DNA from: Chitinophaga pinensis
GTDB lineage: Bacteria; Bacteroidota; Bacteroidia; Flavobacteriales_D; Crocinitomicaceae
DNA length: 35,043 nt
Direction: 5' to 3'
Assembly (NCBI GenBank): GCA_943327315.2
Contig: CALPWQ020000017.1
Span: 1-35,043 of the forward strand
Shown here: piece after piece, positions 11,686 through 22,987 of the stretch
How positions within the stretch are numbered: the stretch's first letter is position 1
Layout of the letters: each line of letters begins with the position of its first letter
The notes under the pieces: generated by a model
What the model saw: the letters and a program-made list of their open reading frames with translations, nothing else
Database searches by the model: none
Told to the model about the DNA's origin: nothing
Program-made: the position numbers and the translations under genes

Positions 11686-11706
11686 CGATGAGAATTTAAG
11701 AATTAA

Positions 11707-11879
11707 GAATTTGTTGCTTCGCAAATGAAAATTTGATCCCTTCGGGAATTTGACGCCATAGGCGATTCAGAATTTGTTGCTTCGCAAATGAAAATTTGAT
11801 CCCTTCGGGAATTTAACACCATAAGCGATTCAGAATTTGTTGCTGCGCAATTGAAAATTTGATCCCTTCGGGAATTTCA
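11707..11879 (+). repeat. 63-bp tandem repeat, about 2.7 copies
   Basis: Units start at 11707, 11770 and 11833, so the period is exactly 63 bp, with few substitutions. Each unit carries up to three tiny palindromes: TTGCTTCGCAA, TCCCTTCGGGA and GCCATAGGC. The units contain in-frame stops and are not coding. Related sequence occurs at about 3320-3415. The repeat occupies most of the gap of about 380 bp between the divergent helicase and serine hydrolase genes. Confidence 0.85.
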
Positions 11880-11902: not shown

Positions 11903-11997
11903 AACTCGTAACTCGTAACTCGTAACTTTAAAAAGTCTTTCAGCGAAGCGGTCCAATGACCTTTGTGGCTTCGAGACTGCTGGCGCACCTCAGCCAC
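11903..11997 (+). repeat. Heptamer array plus REP-like hairpin, copy 2
   Basis: Three perfect AACTCGT units (11903-11923) are followed about 40 nt later by the conserved hairpin (11965-11997). The stem GTGGCT..GAG / CTC..AGCCAC is identical to the copies at 3272 and 23147. No coding potential is seen. Confidence 0.7.
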
Positions 11998-15344: not shown

Positions 15345-15434
15345 ATTCGTAATTCGTAATTCGTAATTCGTAATTCGTAATTCGTAATTCGTAATTAGTA
15401 ATTAGTAATTAGTAATTAGTAATTAGTAATTAGT
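15345..15434 (+). repeat. Heptanucleotide microsatellite, AATTCGT x6 then AATTAGT x6
   Basis: A partial unit (15345-15350) is followed by six perfect AATTCGT units (15351-15392) and six perfect AATTAGT units (15393-15434). The single C-to-A change is fixed in every unit of the second half. The array lies between the SCO and DEAD-box genes and belongs to the same heptamer family as the arrays at 3226, 11903 and 23181. Confidence 0.9.
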
Positions 15435-15458
15435 AACTAATCACTCTTTCTTCGTGGG

Positions 15459-18314: not shown

Positions 18315-18869
18315 ATGTACGGACTAGTAAACAAAGCAATAAAAGACTTGGTAGTAACCAATCACGGAGAAGAAATCTGGAAAGAGATTTGTCACAGGGC
18401 AGACTTTTACGATGAGGATTTCGTTGGAATGAATCCCTATCCAGACGCCCTTACCTATTCATTGGTCCGCCATGCCTCCGAAATTCTAAAGGCCGATGCG
18501 GCCGATATTCTTGAGGCTTTTGGTGAATACTGGATCCTCTACACGGCAGATGAGGGCTACGGTGACTTGATGTCCTTAACGGGAGACACCTTTGTAGAGT
18601 TCTTGGACAATCTCGACATGTTGCATTACCGCATCAACAACTTGATGCCTGGATTGATGCCGCCACAATTTTCTACGCGCAACGAAACAGCCAACTCCAT
18701 CGAACTGGAATACCGATCGCACCGCGAAGGAATGGTCCCAATGGTTTTTGGTCTCATTAAAGGATTGGCAAAACGATTTAATCTATCAGTGACCATTCAA
18801 CAAATTCATGAACGTGAAAACACGGATGACTGTCATGTCTTCTACATTAAATGGGAAGCCATATCATGA
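18315..18869 (+). CDS. Stand-alone H-NOX heme nitric-oxide sensor
   Basis: This 184-residue soluble heme sensor contains only an H-NOX domain. The proximal heme ligand is His104 in DNLDMLHYRI. The conserved Pro 13 residues later is Pro117. The heme-propionate motif YxSxR is Tyr133-Arg-Ser135-His-Arg137, in YRSHREG. The distal position used by the O2-stabilising Tyr of clostridial or Thermoanaerobacter H-NOX is Met143 here, with the same spacing as Ile145 of guanylate cyclase beta1. That predicts NO selectivity and poor O2 binding. The stop overlaps the kinase start (ATGA), so sensor and kinase are made together. Bacterial H-NOX proteins next to kinases usually inhibit or stimulate the kinase in response to NO. 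The family call is very firm; ligand selectivity is inferred. Confidence 0.93.
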   Translation: MYGLVNKAIKDLVVTNHGEEIWKEICHRADFYDEDFVGMNPYPDALTYSLVRHASEILKADAADILEAFGEYWILYTADEGYGDLMSLTGDTFVEFLDNLDMLHYRINNLMPGLMPPQFSTRNETANSIELEYRSHREGMVPMVFGLIKGLAKRFNLSVTIQQIHERENTDDCHVFYIKWEAIS

Positions 18870-21800
18870 TACCGCCAGAAATACCCTTCAATGAAATAGA
18901 GCGCATTGCTGCGTTGAAAAGTTATCATTTACTTGATACACTTTCGGAGGAGGAATTTGATGAGCTAACTGAATTGGCGGCGCAAATTTGCGGAACGCCC
19001 ATTGCAGCAATTACGCTCATTGATGAGCACAGACAATGGTTCAAGTCAACGCATGGTTTTACTATAAACGAGACGCCACGCGATGTTTCATTTTGTGCAC
19101 ACGCCATCAATACCCCTTCGGAAACCATGATTGTTCCGAATGCCCAAGTTGATGAACGCTTTTTAGACAATCCTTTTGTTACGGGAGAAGCAAATTTTGT
19201 GTTTTATGCAGGAGTCCCCATCGTAGATGCCGATGAATTTGCCTTAGGAACACTTTGTGTTATCGATAACACGCCGCGAGAACTGAGCGAGGCACAACTG
19301 AAATCCTTAAAAATAGTCGCTAAAAATGTTGTTAAACTTATAGAACTGAGACGCAGCAATCGCGATTTAGTGGGGAAATATGATTTGATGCTGCAATCGC
19401 TCGAACTCAACAATCCCTTCTATTTGGTGGTCAACGACGCTGGAACGATTGATTATTTTGGCCGCAGCTTTAAAAAATCGGTACCATCCATGGAACAAGG
19501 AATGGCTTTCGACTCCTTCTTCTTTTTTGAACGACATATTCCGTTAAGTGACTTCAGAGATGCCAAAAGTCGTCGCAACAGAATGGTATTCTTCAACACA
19601 TTGGATGGAAACCAGCGCTACAAATGTTCCATTTCTGAAATAGGAAATCGCTTGGTCATCTCCGCAATGCCGCTGCTCAATGTAAAGTTTCCGCTGGACA
19701 ATTACCATTTGACCATCAACGATTTTGCGCAACACGATTACATCGCTGAATTTCTTTTCCTCCAAAACACCAGTGAACGTTCATTGAAGGAATCGCGTGA
19801 ACTCATGGATCGAATGGTCATAAAGAATAAAAAACTAGAAGCGGCACGAAAAGACATCGACATTCTTTCCCGTTTCCCCATGGAAAATCCGCATCCTGTT
19901 TTGCGATTGACCACAGACGGAGATATATTATTCAACAATGAGTCGGCAAAAAAACACTTTTTGAATGATTTTTCAATAAACGAAAATCGGATTCATGACG
20001 AAGAACTCAATGGCTTGATTCACTTGTTGATTGAGAAAAAAGACAAAAGCCGATTGAAAATGTTTCATCGGAATAACCGCCATTATTCGATCACACTCCG
20101 CTATGTTGAGGAACATCAGTATGTAAATTTATATGCCAATGAGATTACCAGCTTCATTGAAATGGTGCAATCTACAGAAAAGGAACTCATTGGGCTCACC
20201 AAAAAACTAGAGGAACAAAAGAACTTCTACGAACATGTCTTGAACAACATTCCGTCAGACATTGCGGTGTTTGACACAAACCACAAGTATTTGTTCATCA
20301 ATCCTCAAGGCATCAAAAACCCAGAAATCAGGGCTTACATGATTGGGAAAGATGATTTTGATTACTGCAAACTGAAAGGAATTCCCAACGACATCGCCAT
20401 TCAACGACGAGAATTGTACAATAAAATTATTGAAGGGGGAGAATTCGTAGTTTGGGAAGATGACTTTAAATTGCCTGATGGAAGTCGAAATGTTGTTCGA
20501 CGAAAAATGGGTCCCGCATACGACGAGAAAGGAGAGATCCGGTTTTTAATTGGCTATGGTGTTGATGTCACCGACAAAGTCTTGGCCGAGGAGCGCTATC
20601 GTTCATTGTTTGAAAATAACATGGCTGGCGTATTCCGAACGGGGATAAATGGCGAAATTTATGACATTAATCCCGCTTATGCCAAAATACATGGATTTGA
20701 TAGCGTAGACGAACTCAAGAATGTGCGTTCGACCTCATTTTTTAAAAGTGAAAAAACGCGAAATGAATTCATTGCCTTGTTGAAAAAAGAAGGCAACTTA
20801 CGAAACCATATCCTCTTGAATATCGATCGATATGGGAAAGATTTATGGCTATTGATCAACATCAGTTACCGCATTGCACCGACAGGTGAAGAATTTTTAG
20901 AGGGTACATTAATAGACATTACAGAGCAGAAGCTAGCTGAGATAAATCTTCAGCACGAAATGGAAGAAAAGCTGAATGCCGAAAAAGCATTAAACGCAAA
21001 ATCTTTGTTCCAAAACCTGTTGATGGAAATTTCTTCCAAATACATTAACCTTCCTGTAAATCAAATTCAATTTGCCATCAATGAATCCTTGAAGCAAATT
21101 GGACAATATGTAAAGGTGGACCGTGTCTATATTTTCAATTACGATTTTGCTTCTCAAACATCATCCAATACCTATGAGTGGTGCAATGACGGGATTGAAC
21201 CTCAGCTGAAACTGTTTCAGAACATTCCTTTCAGCGATATGCCCATCTGGATTAAAACACATAGCGAAGGGAAACCAATCATTGTGCCGGATGTCAGAGA
21301 GCTTCCCGAAGGGAAATTTAGGGAGTTAATCGAAGTGCAAGACATTTTAAGTTTGTTGACATTGCCGTTGATGGACGGTGATCAATGCCTCGGTTTTGTT
21401 GGATTTGACTCCGTTCGGTCGATCCGTCGATTTACCGAAGATGAACAGCTGCTTCTGCAACTTTATGCGCAAATGCTCGTGAATGTAAAGAGCCGAACCG
21501 AATACATTCAACAAATTGAGACGGGTAAAAAGCAAATCGAGATCATCAATAGTGAACTAGAAACTCGCGTCATTGAAGAGACAAAAAAGAACCTAGAACT
21601 GTCGAAATCCATTACAGACCAAGAAAAACTAGTCACCCTAGGGGAGATTGCTAGTGGCATTGCACATGACTTAAATACACCACTAGGCGCCATAAAAAGT
21701 GGAGCAGAAAGTATACTATATACCTTTGAGCGCTTGTTCAATGATACCATAGAATATTGTTCGGATGACCAAATCCACTTTGCATGGACCAGAGCAGAAA

Positions 21801-22573
21801 ACAAACAAGTGGAACTCTTTATTGGGGGAATGCAGCAACGCCGAGAGGTAATGAATACACTCAACTTTCTGAGTGAAATGTACCCCACTTTGAGCGATGA
21901 CAATCAACACGAAATGGCTGAAGGACTTGTCAAAGCACGTATTTCTGTTGAAGAACCCGAGTTGATCCATCAAATTATCGAAAGTAAAAATTCCACACAC
22001 TTCATCAATCTGATCTATCACACATCGATGATTCGCAATTTCATCAATGCGATTTCAATTTCCAATGAGCGGGCAACAAAAGTGATACAGGGGCTTCGAA
22101 CATTCATTAAAGACCATCAACACGGCACAAAAGGACCAATTAACTTACACCAAAACATTTCAACTGTTTTGAGTGTCTTTGATTACGAGATTCGTCGAAA
22201 TACTGAGTTGCAATTTGAGGTAGATCATAACTTGACCGTCCACGCACATGACATTAAACTGTTTCAGTTGTGGTCCAACATCATAAAAAATGGCTTAGAA
22301 TCCATGGAAGACCGTGAGTACAGAGGATTGCTCCATATCTATTCATCAGAAACAAGCAAAACAATATCCATTCACCTAGAAAACAATGGCCCAATTATTT
22401 CAAAGGAAGTTCAGGCAAGAATCTTTGATAAATTCTACACCACAAAATCCGCAAAAAATGGAACGGGCTTAGGATTGAACATTGTGAAGAACATTCTCGA
22501 CGAGCACGATGCATCCATCTCTTTGGATTCTAATGAATTATTAACTACATTCACAATTACATTTAAGAAATAA
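18866..22573 (+). CDS. Multi-sensor histidine kinase: GAF-HNOBA-coiled coil-PAS x3-GAF-HisKA-HATPase
   Basis: This 1235-residue soluble kinase has no membrane segment. GAF 1 (about 15-165) includes FDELTELAAQICGTPIA and ETPRDVSFCAHAI. Residues 175-311 fit HNOBA, the domain following H-NOX in guanylate cyclases: NNPFYLVVNDAGTIDYFG, then LTINDFAQHDYIAEFLFLQ, and a coiled coil. PAS-like modules lie at about 338-428 (HPVLRLTTDGDILFNN), 455-572 and 577-690. GAF 2 is at about 731-875. The H-box SGIAHDLNTPLGAI carries His934. The ATPase has SNIIKNGLESM and GTGLGLNIV, but the G1 Asp is Asn1173 (ENNGPI). About 130 residues separate the H-box from helix 2 (SNERATKVIQGL). Start at 18866 is chosen for the 4-base overlap with H-NOX and a GGAAG upstream; an in-frame ATG at 18851 is the alternative. 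Confidence 0.88.
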   Translation: MIPPEIPFNEIERIAALKSYHLLDTLSEEEFDELTELAAQICGTPIAAITLIDEHRQWFKSTHGFTINETPRDVSFCAHAINTPSETMIVPNAQVDERFLDNPFVTGEANFVFYAGVPIVDADEFALGTLCVIDNTPRELSEAQLKSLKIVAKNVVKLIELRRSNRDLVGKYDLMLQSLELNNPFYLVVNDAGTIDYFGRSFKKSVPSMEQGMAFDSFFFFERHIPLSDFRDAKSRRNRMVFFNTLDGNQRYKCSISEIGNRLVISAMPLLNVKFPLDNYHLTINDFAQHDYIAEFLFLQNTSERSLKESRELMDRMVIKNKKLEAARKDIDILSRFPMENPHPVLRLTTDGDILFNNESAKKHFLNDFSINENRIHDEELNGLIHLLIEKKDKSRLKMFHRNNRHYSITLRYVEEHQYVNLYANEITSFIEMVQSTEKELIGLTKKLEEQKNFYEHVLNNIPSDIAVFDTNHKYLFINPQGIKNPEIRAYMIGKDDFDYCKLKGIPNDIAIQRRELYNKIIEGGEFVVWEDDFKLPDGSRNVVRRKMGPAYDEKGEIRFLIGYGVDVTDKVLAEERYRSLFENNMAGVFRTGINGEIYDINPAYAKIHGFDSVDELKNVRSTSFFKSEKTRNEFIALLKKEGNLRNHILLNIDRYGKDLWLLINISYRIAPTGEEFLEGTLIDITEQKLAEINLQHEMEEKLNAEKALNAKSLFQNLLMEISSKYINLPVNQIQFAINESLKQIGQYVKVDRVYIFNYDFASQTSSNTYEWCNDGIEPQLKLFQNIPFSDMPIWIKTHSEGKPIIVPDVRELPEGKFRELIEVQDILSLLTLPLMDGDQCLGFVGFDSVRSIRRFTEDEQLLLQLYAQMLVNVKSRTEYIQQIETGKKQIEIINSELETRVIEETKKNLELSKSITDQEKLVTLGEIASGIAHDLNTPLGAIKSGAESILYTFERLFNDTIEYCSDDQIHFAWTRAENKQVELFIGGMQQRREVMNTLNFLSEMYPTLSDDNQHEMAEGLVKARISVEEPELIHQIIESKNSTHFINLIYHTSMIRNFINAISISNERATKVIQGLRTFIKDHQHGTKGPINLHQNISTVLSVFDYEIRRNTELQFEVDHNLTVHAHDIKLFQLWSNIIKNGLESMEDREYRGLLHIYSSETSKTISIHLENNGPIISKEVQARIFDKFYTTKSAKNGTGLGLNIVKNILDEHDASISLDSNELLTTFTITFKK

Positions 22574-22576
22574 AAA

Positions 22577-22987
22577 ATGGATAAACTACGCTACGCGGTC
22601 ATCTGTGTTGATGACGATTCACACATCCTGCAGATGCTCAGTTTCCAATTAGAAAAAATTATTGATGTGAAATGTACGCTGCTCGAGTATTTCACGGATC
22701 CTAAATTGGCCCTTGAAGGGCTTGATGAATTGATCAGCATACCCTTAGATGTGATCTTCATCATCGTTGACTACCAAATGCCAGAGATGAATGGCGCACA
22801 ACTCATCCGCGCCATCAAAGAAAAATACCCCAACTTGGAGTGCATCATGTTGTCTGGACAAGCTAATTCTAGCCAAGTGAATGATTTGCAAAACGAAAAA
22901 ATGCTCTCTCACTTCATCAGTAAACCTTGGGAGGAAGCAACACTTTTTCAGGCCTTGAGACCAATTATTGAGAATAAAGCTTGCTAA
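22577..22987 (+). CDS. Receiver-only response regulator
   Basis: This 136-residue CheY-like protein has no output domain. The acidic pocket is Asp12-Asp13-Asp14 (CVDDD), the phosphoacceptor is Asp65 (IVDYQMPEMNG), the conserved Ser is Ser93 (MLSGQ) and the Lys is Lys116 in SKPWEE. The KPW form is common in receivers linked to GAF/PAS kinases and HD-GYP regulators. It starts 3 nt after the kinase stop, so it is surely part of the H-NOX operon and the probable phosphate acceptor of that kinase. With no DNA-binding or enzymatic domain, the signal must pass on by protein contact or phosphorelay to a partner elsewhere. Confidence 0.92.
   Translation: MDKLRYAVICVDDDSHILQMLSFQLEKIIDVKCTLLEYFTDPKLALEGLDELISIPLDVIFIIVDYQMPEMNGAQLIRAIKEKYPNLECIMLSGQANSSQVNDLQNEKMLSHFISKPWEEATLFQALRPIIENKAC

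Follow-up and report, generated by a model that had tools for sequence, protein, structure and literature searches.

The window considered here is the whole stretch of DNA that was analysed, 35,043 nucleotides of a Bacteroidota contig, and at positions 18315-22987 it holds a plus-strand unit of three genes that encode, in this order, an H-NOX protein, a histidine kinase and a receiver-only protein. The H-NOX and HNOBA domains, which in the nitric oxide (NO) receptor soluble guanylate cyclase (sGC) stand on one chain, are here distributed over the first two of these proteins, and the observation of a locus split in this way into H-NOX, HNOBA kinase and receiver is confirmed. The genes, and one residue of the first of them, are the following.

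18315..18869, plus strand: stand-alone H-NOX, 184 aa (Pfam HNOB, relatives in the PDB, residue tables)
18615..18617, plus strand: H-NOX Asp101, candidate contact to HNOBA (Nostoc Asp102 column; sGC beta-1 Asp102 on helix alphaF)
18866..22573, plus strand: histidine kinase, 1235 aa from the ATG at 18866
22577..22987, plus strand: receiver-only response regulator, 136 aa (Pfam Response_reg)

The 4-base overlap (ATGA) that the first-pass annotation had given for the H-NOX and kinase genes holds with the ATG at 18866, but becomes one of 19 bases with an alternative in-frame ATG at 18851, so that its length depends on the start codon picked; the receiver gene starts 3 bases downstream of the kinase gene. 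An H-NOX gene beside kinase and receiver genes, the adjacency expected of an H-NOX-regulated two-component system, recurs in relatives. The arrangement is not that of sGC itself, where H-NOX, HNOBA, coiled coil and class III cyclase lie on one chain, because here the H-NOX is separate and the kinase carries a HATPase and no cyclase domain.

The H-NOX protein is a full member of Pfam HNOB (PF07700; 163.4 bits against a cut-off of 25.5). Its haem residues are the proximal ligand His104 and Tyr133-x-Ser135-x-Arg137 (the YxSxR motif), and in its distal pocket Trp73 and Met143 occupy the columns of Nostoc Trp74 and Met144. A distal-pocket tyrosine, which in Tt H-NOX is Tyr140, is thus lacking, as would be expected of an NO-selective protein. 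Among solved structures its best relatives are Nostoc Alr2278 (182.6 bits) and sGC beta-1 (92-108 bits), the remaining solved H-NOX proteins listed scoring 27-41 bits, and it is the one H-NOX in all of the window's genome (G000). The kinase is built of the following parts.

18947..19330, plus strand: GAF1, kinase residues 28-155, the best Pfam GAF stretch
19400..19861, plus strand: HNOBA and the start of the long helix, residues 179-332 (leave-one-out profile, Pfam on the segment, fold match)
19613..19624, plus strand: QRYK motif, residues 250-253, in which Arg251 and Lys253 align with sGC beta-1 Arg305 and Lys307
19712..19765, plus strand: hinge TINDFAQHDYIAEFLFLQ between the PAS-like core and the helix, residues 283-300 (alignment columns)
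19730..19873, plus strand: long helix (signalling helix or coiled coil), residues 289-336 (secondary structure of the AlphaFold model)
19868..20215, plus strand: PAS-like module, residues about 335-450 (phmmer to relatives L033, L035 and L058)
20240..20578, plus strand: PAS domain (PAS_4), residues 459-571 (Pfam)
20645..20926, plus strand: PAS domain (PAS_9), residues 594-687 (Pfam)
21017..21484, plus strand: GAF2, residues about 718-873 (second Pfam GAF stretch, edges read from the sequence)
21638..21715, plus strand: HisKA H-box, residues 925-950 (Pfam, under the cut-off)
22253..22567, plus strand: HATPase_c, residues 1130-1234 (Pfam, 54.4 bits, over the cut-off)

GAF1 reaches 53.5 bits in Pfam when kinase residues 1-353 are scanned alone, and its model matches 4zmu_A over residues 2-168 (Z 27.8). 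Both GAF domains named by the first-pass annotation were found by Pfam, and so were two of its three PAS-like modules; the third matches PAS-like stretches of relatives by phmmer, the Pfam scan placing no match at residues about 335-450. The protein qualifies as a histidine kinase by its HATPase_c and by the H-box GIAHDLNTP, read from the sequence, with its phospho-acceptor His, the HisKA match being partial and sub-cut-off (19.9 bits against 26.9, limited to residues 925-950). About 110 residues (about 951-1060) separate the H-box from the next kinase-core match, and therefore the HisKA match spans just 26 residues. The third gene encodes a single domain (Response_reg, 57.2 bits over 136 aa) whose probable phospho-acceptor, judged from the sequence, is Asp65; against the receiver part of the NosR model NF053512 it scores 73.6 bits, far below the model cut-off of 400. 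The gene order supports the wiring to a phosphorelay that had been proposed.

The central question is whether the kinase segment after GAF1 is a true HNOBA, the domain reportedly named by Iyer in 2003. The PF07701 search that the first-pass annotation had suggested gave 14.6 bits for the whole kinase (E 0.024), under the cut-off of 23.4, and 23.5, 23.4 and 20.1 bits for three cuts of the segment, that is, values around it; because of the whole-protein score we call the domain divergent, homologous by profile and fold. A leave-one-out profile, built from nine other H-NOX-linked HNOBA domains (genes after H-NOX in other Bacteroidota, window excluded), gives 56.3 bits to residues 179-332, when the best of 2000 shuffled segments gives 12.9. 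All ten domains of the set including the window match PF07701 at E <= 0.1 (best 5.7e-24), as do, at E <= 0.001, the isolated segments of 34 of 35 loci, the window among them; and a profile restricted to the window's branch (16 domains, no classical members) has as its sole PDB matches under E 0.001 the Nostoc structures 2P04 and 2P08 (E 2.8e-4).

The fold points the same way. In an AlphaFold model of residues 169-340 (36 sequences, pLDDT 84) the predicted structure is a PAS-like fold that runs into a signalling helix as in sGC beta-1, in agreement with the coiled coil that had been annotated after HNOBA. All 18 Foldseek matches at E <= 0.001 are sGC, 2P04, 2P08 or 4gj4 (the Manduca sGC PAS domain), and in a re-comparison of the best 1000 Foldseek chains (VIA-align) the first 12 rows are the same set, with Z from 15.1 to 11.0, the next generic PAS having Z 9.7. 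The match to human sGC beta-1 205-396 (8hbh_B; HNOBA and coiled coil) has Z 15.1 over 167 residues with rmsd 5.2, and that to 2p08_A has Z 13.3 with rmsd 2.4 over 102 residues. The HNOBA claimed in the first-pass annotation is thus borne out by homology, the motifs quoted for it being present in the kinase, and the outcome that it had named as telling against it, a fold unrelated to PAS/HNOBA, is not what the model gives. When 11 full-length HNOBA proteins were scanned with Pfam, seven fell below the HNOBA cut-off and four above (L033, L090, L092, L098); those below are all six N-terminally extended proteins (window, L108, L117, L160, L171, L178) and L109. Two close relatives, L160 and L178, have no HNOBA match at E 0.01 on the full protein.

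The locus is one of many. Of 395 genomes sampled from the phylum 27 have HNOB, and of 299 genomes of the order 67, the window's genome being counted in both; three H-NOX matches (G485, G655, G657) are not among the loci analysed. Of the 101 Bacteroidota H-NOX loci, counting the window, 46 have a gene for an HNOBA protein directly after H-NOX and 42 one for a kinase that begins with a conserved helix; in 13 the following gene is something other or unreadable. The 13, left out of a count of 88 labelled rows, comprise seven 'other' loci, namely one with a contig-cut GAF start inside the HNOBA half (L159), two kinases with a different N-terminal helix (L042, L052) and four whose neighbours look unrelated to kinases (L050, L055, L056, L057), and six without a readable next gene (L051, L093, L097, L106, L107, L155), of which L097 has an HNOBA frame with one stop beside H-NOX. 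Among the 46 partners, 33 have no more than about 15 residues ahead of HNOBA and 13 have 137-172. GAF1 in the position of H-NOX is thus one variant, 33 of the 46 partners starting directly with HNOBA.

A scan of named genomes that started from HNOBA relied on one peptide pattern, taken from the hinge in the window's branch, where every row was an H-NOX neighbour, and it found 42 loci, in records whose titles place them in several groups of Bacteroidetes. H-NOX is directly upstream in 38 of the 42, a figure that, given the origin of the pattern, applies to the window's branch only; each of the remaining four (L164, L168, L200, L201) is cut by the start of its contig. At least 130 residues precede HNOBA in 28 of these loci, five of which (L175, L185, L187, L191, L196) have a shorter front part with Pfam GAF absent or sub-threshold, and Pfam GAF is found at E <= 0.001 in 23 of 37 scanned N-terminal stretches ahead of HNOBA, the window's included. 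In 35 of 42 the gene after the kinase is receiver-only, to judge by its length and first residues. The first-pass annotation is partly supported as a whole: its trans arrangement, with H-NOX as a separate protein, stands, and the reading of the arrangement as special to this operon was rejected, with HNOBA next to H-NOX in 46 of 101 loci and H-NOX upstream in 38 of 42.

The two kinds of partner correspond to two kinds of H-NOX. In a tree of the 101 H-NOX proteins, a quick one computed without bootstrap and with long-branch warnings, the partner type of the 88 labelled loci (46 HNOBA, 42 helix) needs one change, when shuffled labels need on average 29.5 and as few as one in 0 of 500 shuffles; the branch between the two halves has an SH-aLRT of 100. 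The HNOBA label was assigned by profile match and the helix label by a pattern written after seeing the sequences. The split is not just taxonomy, because families f1, f2, f6 and f57 occur in both halves. HNOBA-linked H-NOX proteins (the window and L031) score about 182 bits with Alr2278, 92-118 with sGC beta-1 and 27-41 with other solved types; the one helix-linked protein compared (L137) scores 169 bits with 6bde, 66-71 with 2kii and 4u99, 38 with Alr2278 and 22 with sGC. To judge from these scores, the HNOBA-linked H-NOX is of the Nostoc/sGC type. The 42 helix-linked (class-B) partner kinases (e.g., L038-L041, L043-L048, L113, L139) start, without HNOBA, with a conserved helix of about 45 residues, REKxARKxAExILExKSxELYxxN, for which Pfam lists nothing at E 0.001 in L113 and L139, and which is a candidate minimal H-NOX docking helix.

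The H-NOX lineages are told apart by fourteen positions at which a residue has a frequency of 80% or more in one lineage and 10% or less in the other. Seven of these (Phe36, Asp44, Thr47, Asn99, Leu100, Arg106 and Leu114) map to, or close to, two parts of the protein that PMC3212528 names for the propagation of sGC activation, the alphaB-alphaC loop and the alphaF-beta1 region; the other seven (Tyr2, Asn6, Ala8, Ile9, Trp22, Gly90 and Leu151) do not.

Two H-NOX-linked HNOBA proteins (L090, L092) end in a SpoIIE phosphatase domain, so that the HNOBA partners beside H-NOX are not all kinases. In family f6 (L031-L034, L049, L053) the H-NOX/HNOBA kinase pair is followed by a protein of 376-377 aa and then by more genes, which in the only f6 locus scanned (L033, 5759-10238) encode FIST, two kinases, Hpt and a LytTR response regulator; since the NO sensor NosP is a FIST protein, loci of this type may join two NO sensors to one phosphorelay. 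In genus g2 (L099, L104, L111, L114, L115, L119, L126, L128) the receiver gene is followed in constant order by genes for 445, 101 and about 300 aa, the first two being saccharopine dehydrogenase and DUF3467 in L099.

For the contact between the two domains, sGC offers a guide: according to the review PMC8196705, Asp102 and Asp106 of helix alphaF contact Arg258, Arg305 and Lys307 of the PAS domain, and in its model of activation NO severs the bond to His, alphaF moves and the coiled coil becomes straight. The elements that such a mechanism requires exist in the locus, divided between two proteins and with a kinase as output. The kinase of the window has all three basic residues, Arg223, Arg251 and Lys253, at the columns of Arg258, Arg305 and Lys307. 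All 46 HNOBA domains are basic at the Lys307 column, one of two among 162 well-filled columns that are at least 95% basic, and 27 of the 46 are basic at the Arg305 column. Of the 46 H-NOX proteins, 22 have Asp101; a basic residue stands at the Arg305 column in 21 of these 22, against 6 of the 24 that lack Asp101. This pairing follows subclades and does not arise independently in each locus, so that these counts are suggestive only. The most constant HNOBA columns lie in the hinge after the PAS core (sGC column 342 Asp in 45 of 46, column 343 Phe in 46 of 46).

What the sequences show, namely the order of the genes, the homology of the domains, the lineage and the conserved residues, leads us to propose, with a probability of roughly 0.6, that the locus is a two-protein, bacterial (trans) version of the sGC sensor-transducer unit that drives a phosphorelay. 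The H-NOX would bind NO through a haem on His104 and exclude O2, having no distal tyrosine, and would dock in trans on the HNOBA of the neighbouring kinase; the binding of NO would shift alphaF and so change its contacts with HNOBA Arg251 and Lys253, as in sGC; the altered contacts would make the helix behind the constant DF hinge of HNOBA bend or straighten; and the movement of this helix, passed on through the PAS and GAF modules to the HisKA/HATPase core, would set phosphotransfer to the downstream receiver. GAF1 probably adds a second input, which is suggested because it stands before HNOBA, where sGC has its cis H-NOX. The haem and NO binding, the docking, the response to NO and its sign, the phosphotransfer and the role of GAF1 are what we infer here.

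Several results weigh against this proposal, besides the low whole-kinase Pfam score, the dependence of the Asp101 pairing on subclades and the quickness of the tree: (i) the Arg258 column is Arg in just 22 of 46 HNOBA domains, and the Asp106 column is not conserved in H-NOX, being Tyr in the window; (ii) the straight helix of the AlphaFold model proves no state; (iii) H-NOX distances correlate with those of HNOBA at 0.72 in 37 loci, and with those of HATPase, the control, at 0.68 (0.66 and 0.59 in 31 thinned loci), so that most of the correlation is shared operon inheritance, and it was set aside as proof of contact, being weak and barely above the control; (iv) a strong HNOBA match occurs in 44 genomes of the order, a set that by our own choice leaves out five weak ones, and 11 of the 44 lack an H-NOX match, the figure with those five added (E 2e-12 to 3e-4), which have none either, being 16 of 49; and (v) in nine of the 11 a different gene lies upstream of HNOBA, for example in six genomes of genus g220 and in G569 of the window's genus. 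Across the 299 genomes of the order, 33 have both domains, 11 strong HNOBA only, 34 H-NOX only and 221 neither (odds ratio 19.5), and the pairing is thus strong but not strict. In the remaining two of the 11, the locus is cut at a contig end (G617) or has a short broken H-NOX reading frame directly upstream of the HNOBA kinase, from decay or assembly error (G630, contig C14, L202). Since several of these assemblies are only 76-87% complete, the absence of H-NOX from the genome is less sure than its absence from the locus. The HNOBA proteins of g220 (L204-L209), about 490-530 aa long in genomes without an H-NOX match, have their genes between a response-regulator-like gene upstream, complete in four of six cases, and a receiver-only gene downstream.

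The alternative that survives best is that the H-NOX does regulate the kinase but docks elsewhere, on GAF1, the helix or the DHp/ATPase core, as has reportedly been proposed for Shewanella HnoK, HNOBA being only a dimerising PAS inherited with the operon. The 42 of 101 loci whose partner kinases start with the conserved helix and lack HNOBA imply that H-NOX can work without it; also in favour are the small margin of the distance correlation over the kinase core and an sGC PAS dimer that, according to PMC8196705, is little changed on activation. Against it, the partner module tracks the H-NOX lineage with a single change on the tree, and several of the 14 lineage-specific H-NOX positions lie in or near the regions that PMC3212528 names for sGC activation. 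We consider docking elsewhere unlikely.

It is also conceivable, and in our view rather improbable, that the H-NOX is a shared NO sensor in a branched network, which acts on the kinase next to it and on a pair of divergent HNOBA-like kinases encoded elsewhere in the genome. With its one H-NOX, G000 has two more weak, N-terminal HNOBA matches, at C3 49637-49843 (30 bits; L218) and C29 13898-14218 (26.9 bits; L219), around which there is no H-NOX match, and L219 is followed by a receiver-only gene that resembles the window's. These matches, however, are weak and partial, and G569, of the same genus, retains an HNOBA gene without any H-NOX match, so that kinases of this type may have other inputs. 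That the domain is a generic PAS, like sGC by chance, is close to refuted and was rejected, since against the sub-cut-off full-kinase score and the two relatives without a match stand the 56 bits of the leave-one-out profile against 12.9 for shuffles, the branch profile, the 34 of 35 segments, and the Foldseek and VIA-align comparisons, with sGC and 2P04/2P08 outranking all other PAS listed from the PDB in sequence and fold.

The proposed trans unit can be set beside four known systems. With sGC it shares the type of H-NOX, by score, the HNOBA and helix that match beta-1 205-396, a basic residue at the Lys307 column and an Asp at the Asp102 column; it differs in its separate H-NOX, in the GAF before HNOBA and in an output of histidine kinase and receiver with no cyclase domain. 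The Nostoc punctiforme signal transduction histidine kinase with an H-NOXA/HNOBA domain (PDB 2P04, 2P08), whose H-NOX is reportedly the product of a neighbouring gene, likewise has HNOBA inside a bacterial histidine kinase, but in a cyanobacterium, and the domain of the window is more divergent from the Pfam model. The proteobacterial HnoX-HnoK pairs of Shewanella and Vibrio also combine a stand-alone H-NOX in an operon with a kinase and a two-component output. The H-NOX structures 2kii and 4u99, which we take to be from Shewanella, score with the helix-linked lineage, unlike the H-NOX of the window, and we know of no HNOBA in proteobacterial H-NOX-associated kinases. Finally, the Bacteroidota class-B kinases (e.g., L113, L139) also have H-NOX directly upstream, but they start with the conserved helix instead of HNOBA, and their H-NOX belongs to the other half of the tree.

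The unit is flanked by a gene for an MFS transporter, divergent from it, and by gatC, which converges on it, both assigned by Pfam. As to a source of NO, a single test, with the NirK model TIGR02376, gave no match in the window's genome. Elsewhere in the window, tandem repeats, mostly intergenic, include the heptamers ATTCGTA (13 copies, 15345-15436) and AACTCGT (3.6 copies, 11903-11927) and a repeat of 63 bases (2.8 copies, 11702-11877). A plasmid search with one HNOBA domain gave no match, and one with H-NOX gave eight records, 24-28% identical.

HNOBA in bacterial kinases and H-NOX/kinase operons are kinds already known from the structures 2P04 and 2P08, from PMC2828450 and PMC1592074, and from HnoX/HnoK. 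No description of the GAF-HNOBA arrangement was found in the literature searched, in which HNOBA papers were judged by title and the start of the abstract. Within that literature, two things are new: a recurrent GAF-HNOBA branch with a three-gene operon, whose full-length members fall under the Pfam HNOBA cut-off in six of six scanned, and a clean split of H-NOX by type of transducer. The former also means that domain names have a limit here, as the six N-terminally extended HNOBA proteins scanned all miss the cut-off of their own family. On one reading, H-NOX and HNOBA would have belonged together from early on, joined in a single chain in animals and separate in bacteria. More tentatively still than the trans unit, we suggest that two H-NOX lineages of Bacteroidota are each locked to a transducer of their own, HNOBA in the trans form of sGC or a short N-terminal contact helix, and that in the former the contact between alphaF and HNOBA would have been kept across two proteins, a GAF domain in the GAF-HNOBA branch filling the position of the cis H-NOX and thus making the kinase a two-input gate.

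In sGC, the route by which the NO signal passes out of the H-NOX domain has yet to be settled. With sensor and transducer as separate proteins, dozens of natural pairs and a control lineage that uses another transducer, docking, residue swaps and dependence on NO become directly measurable in these bacteria.

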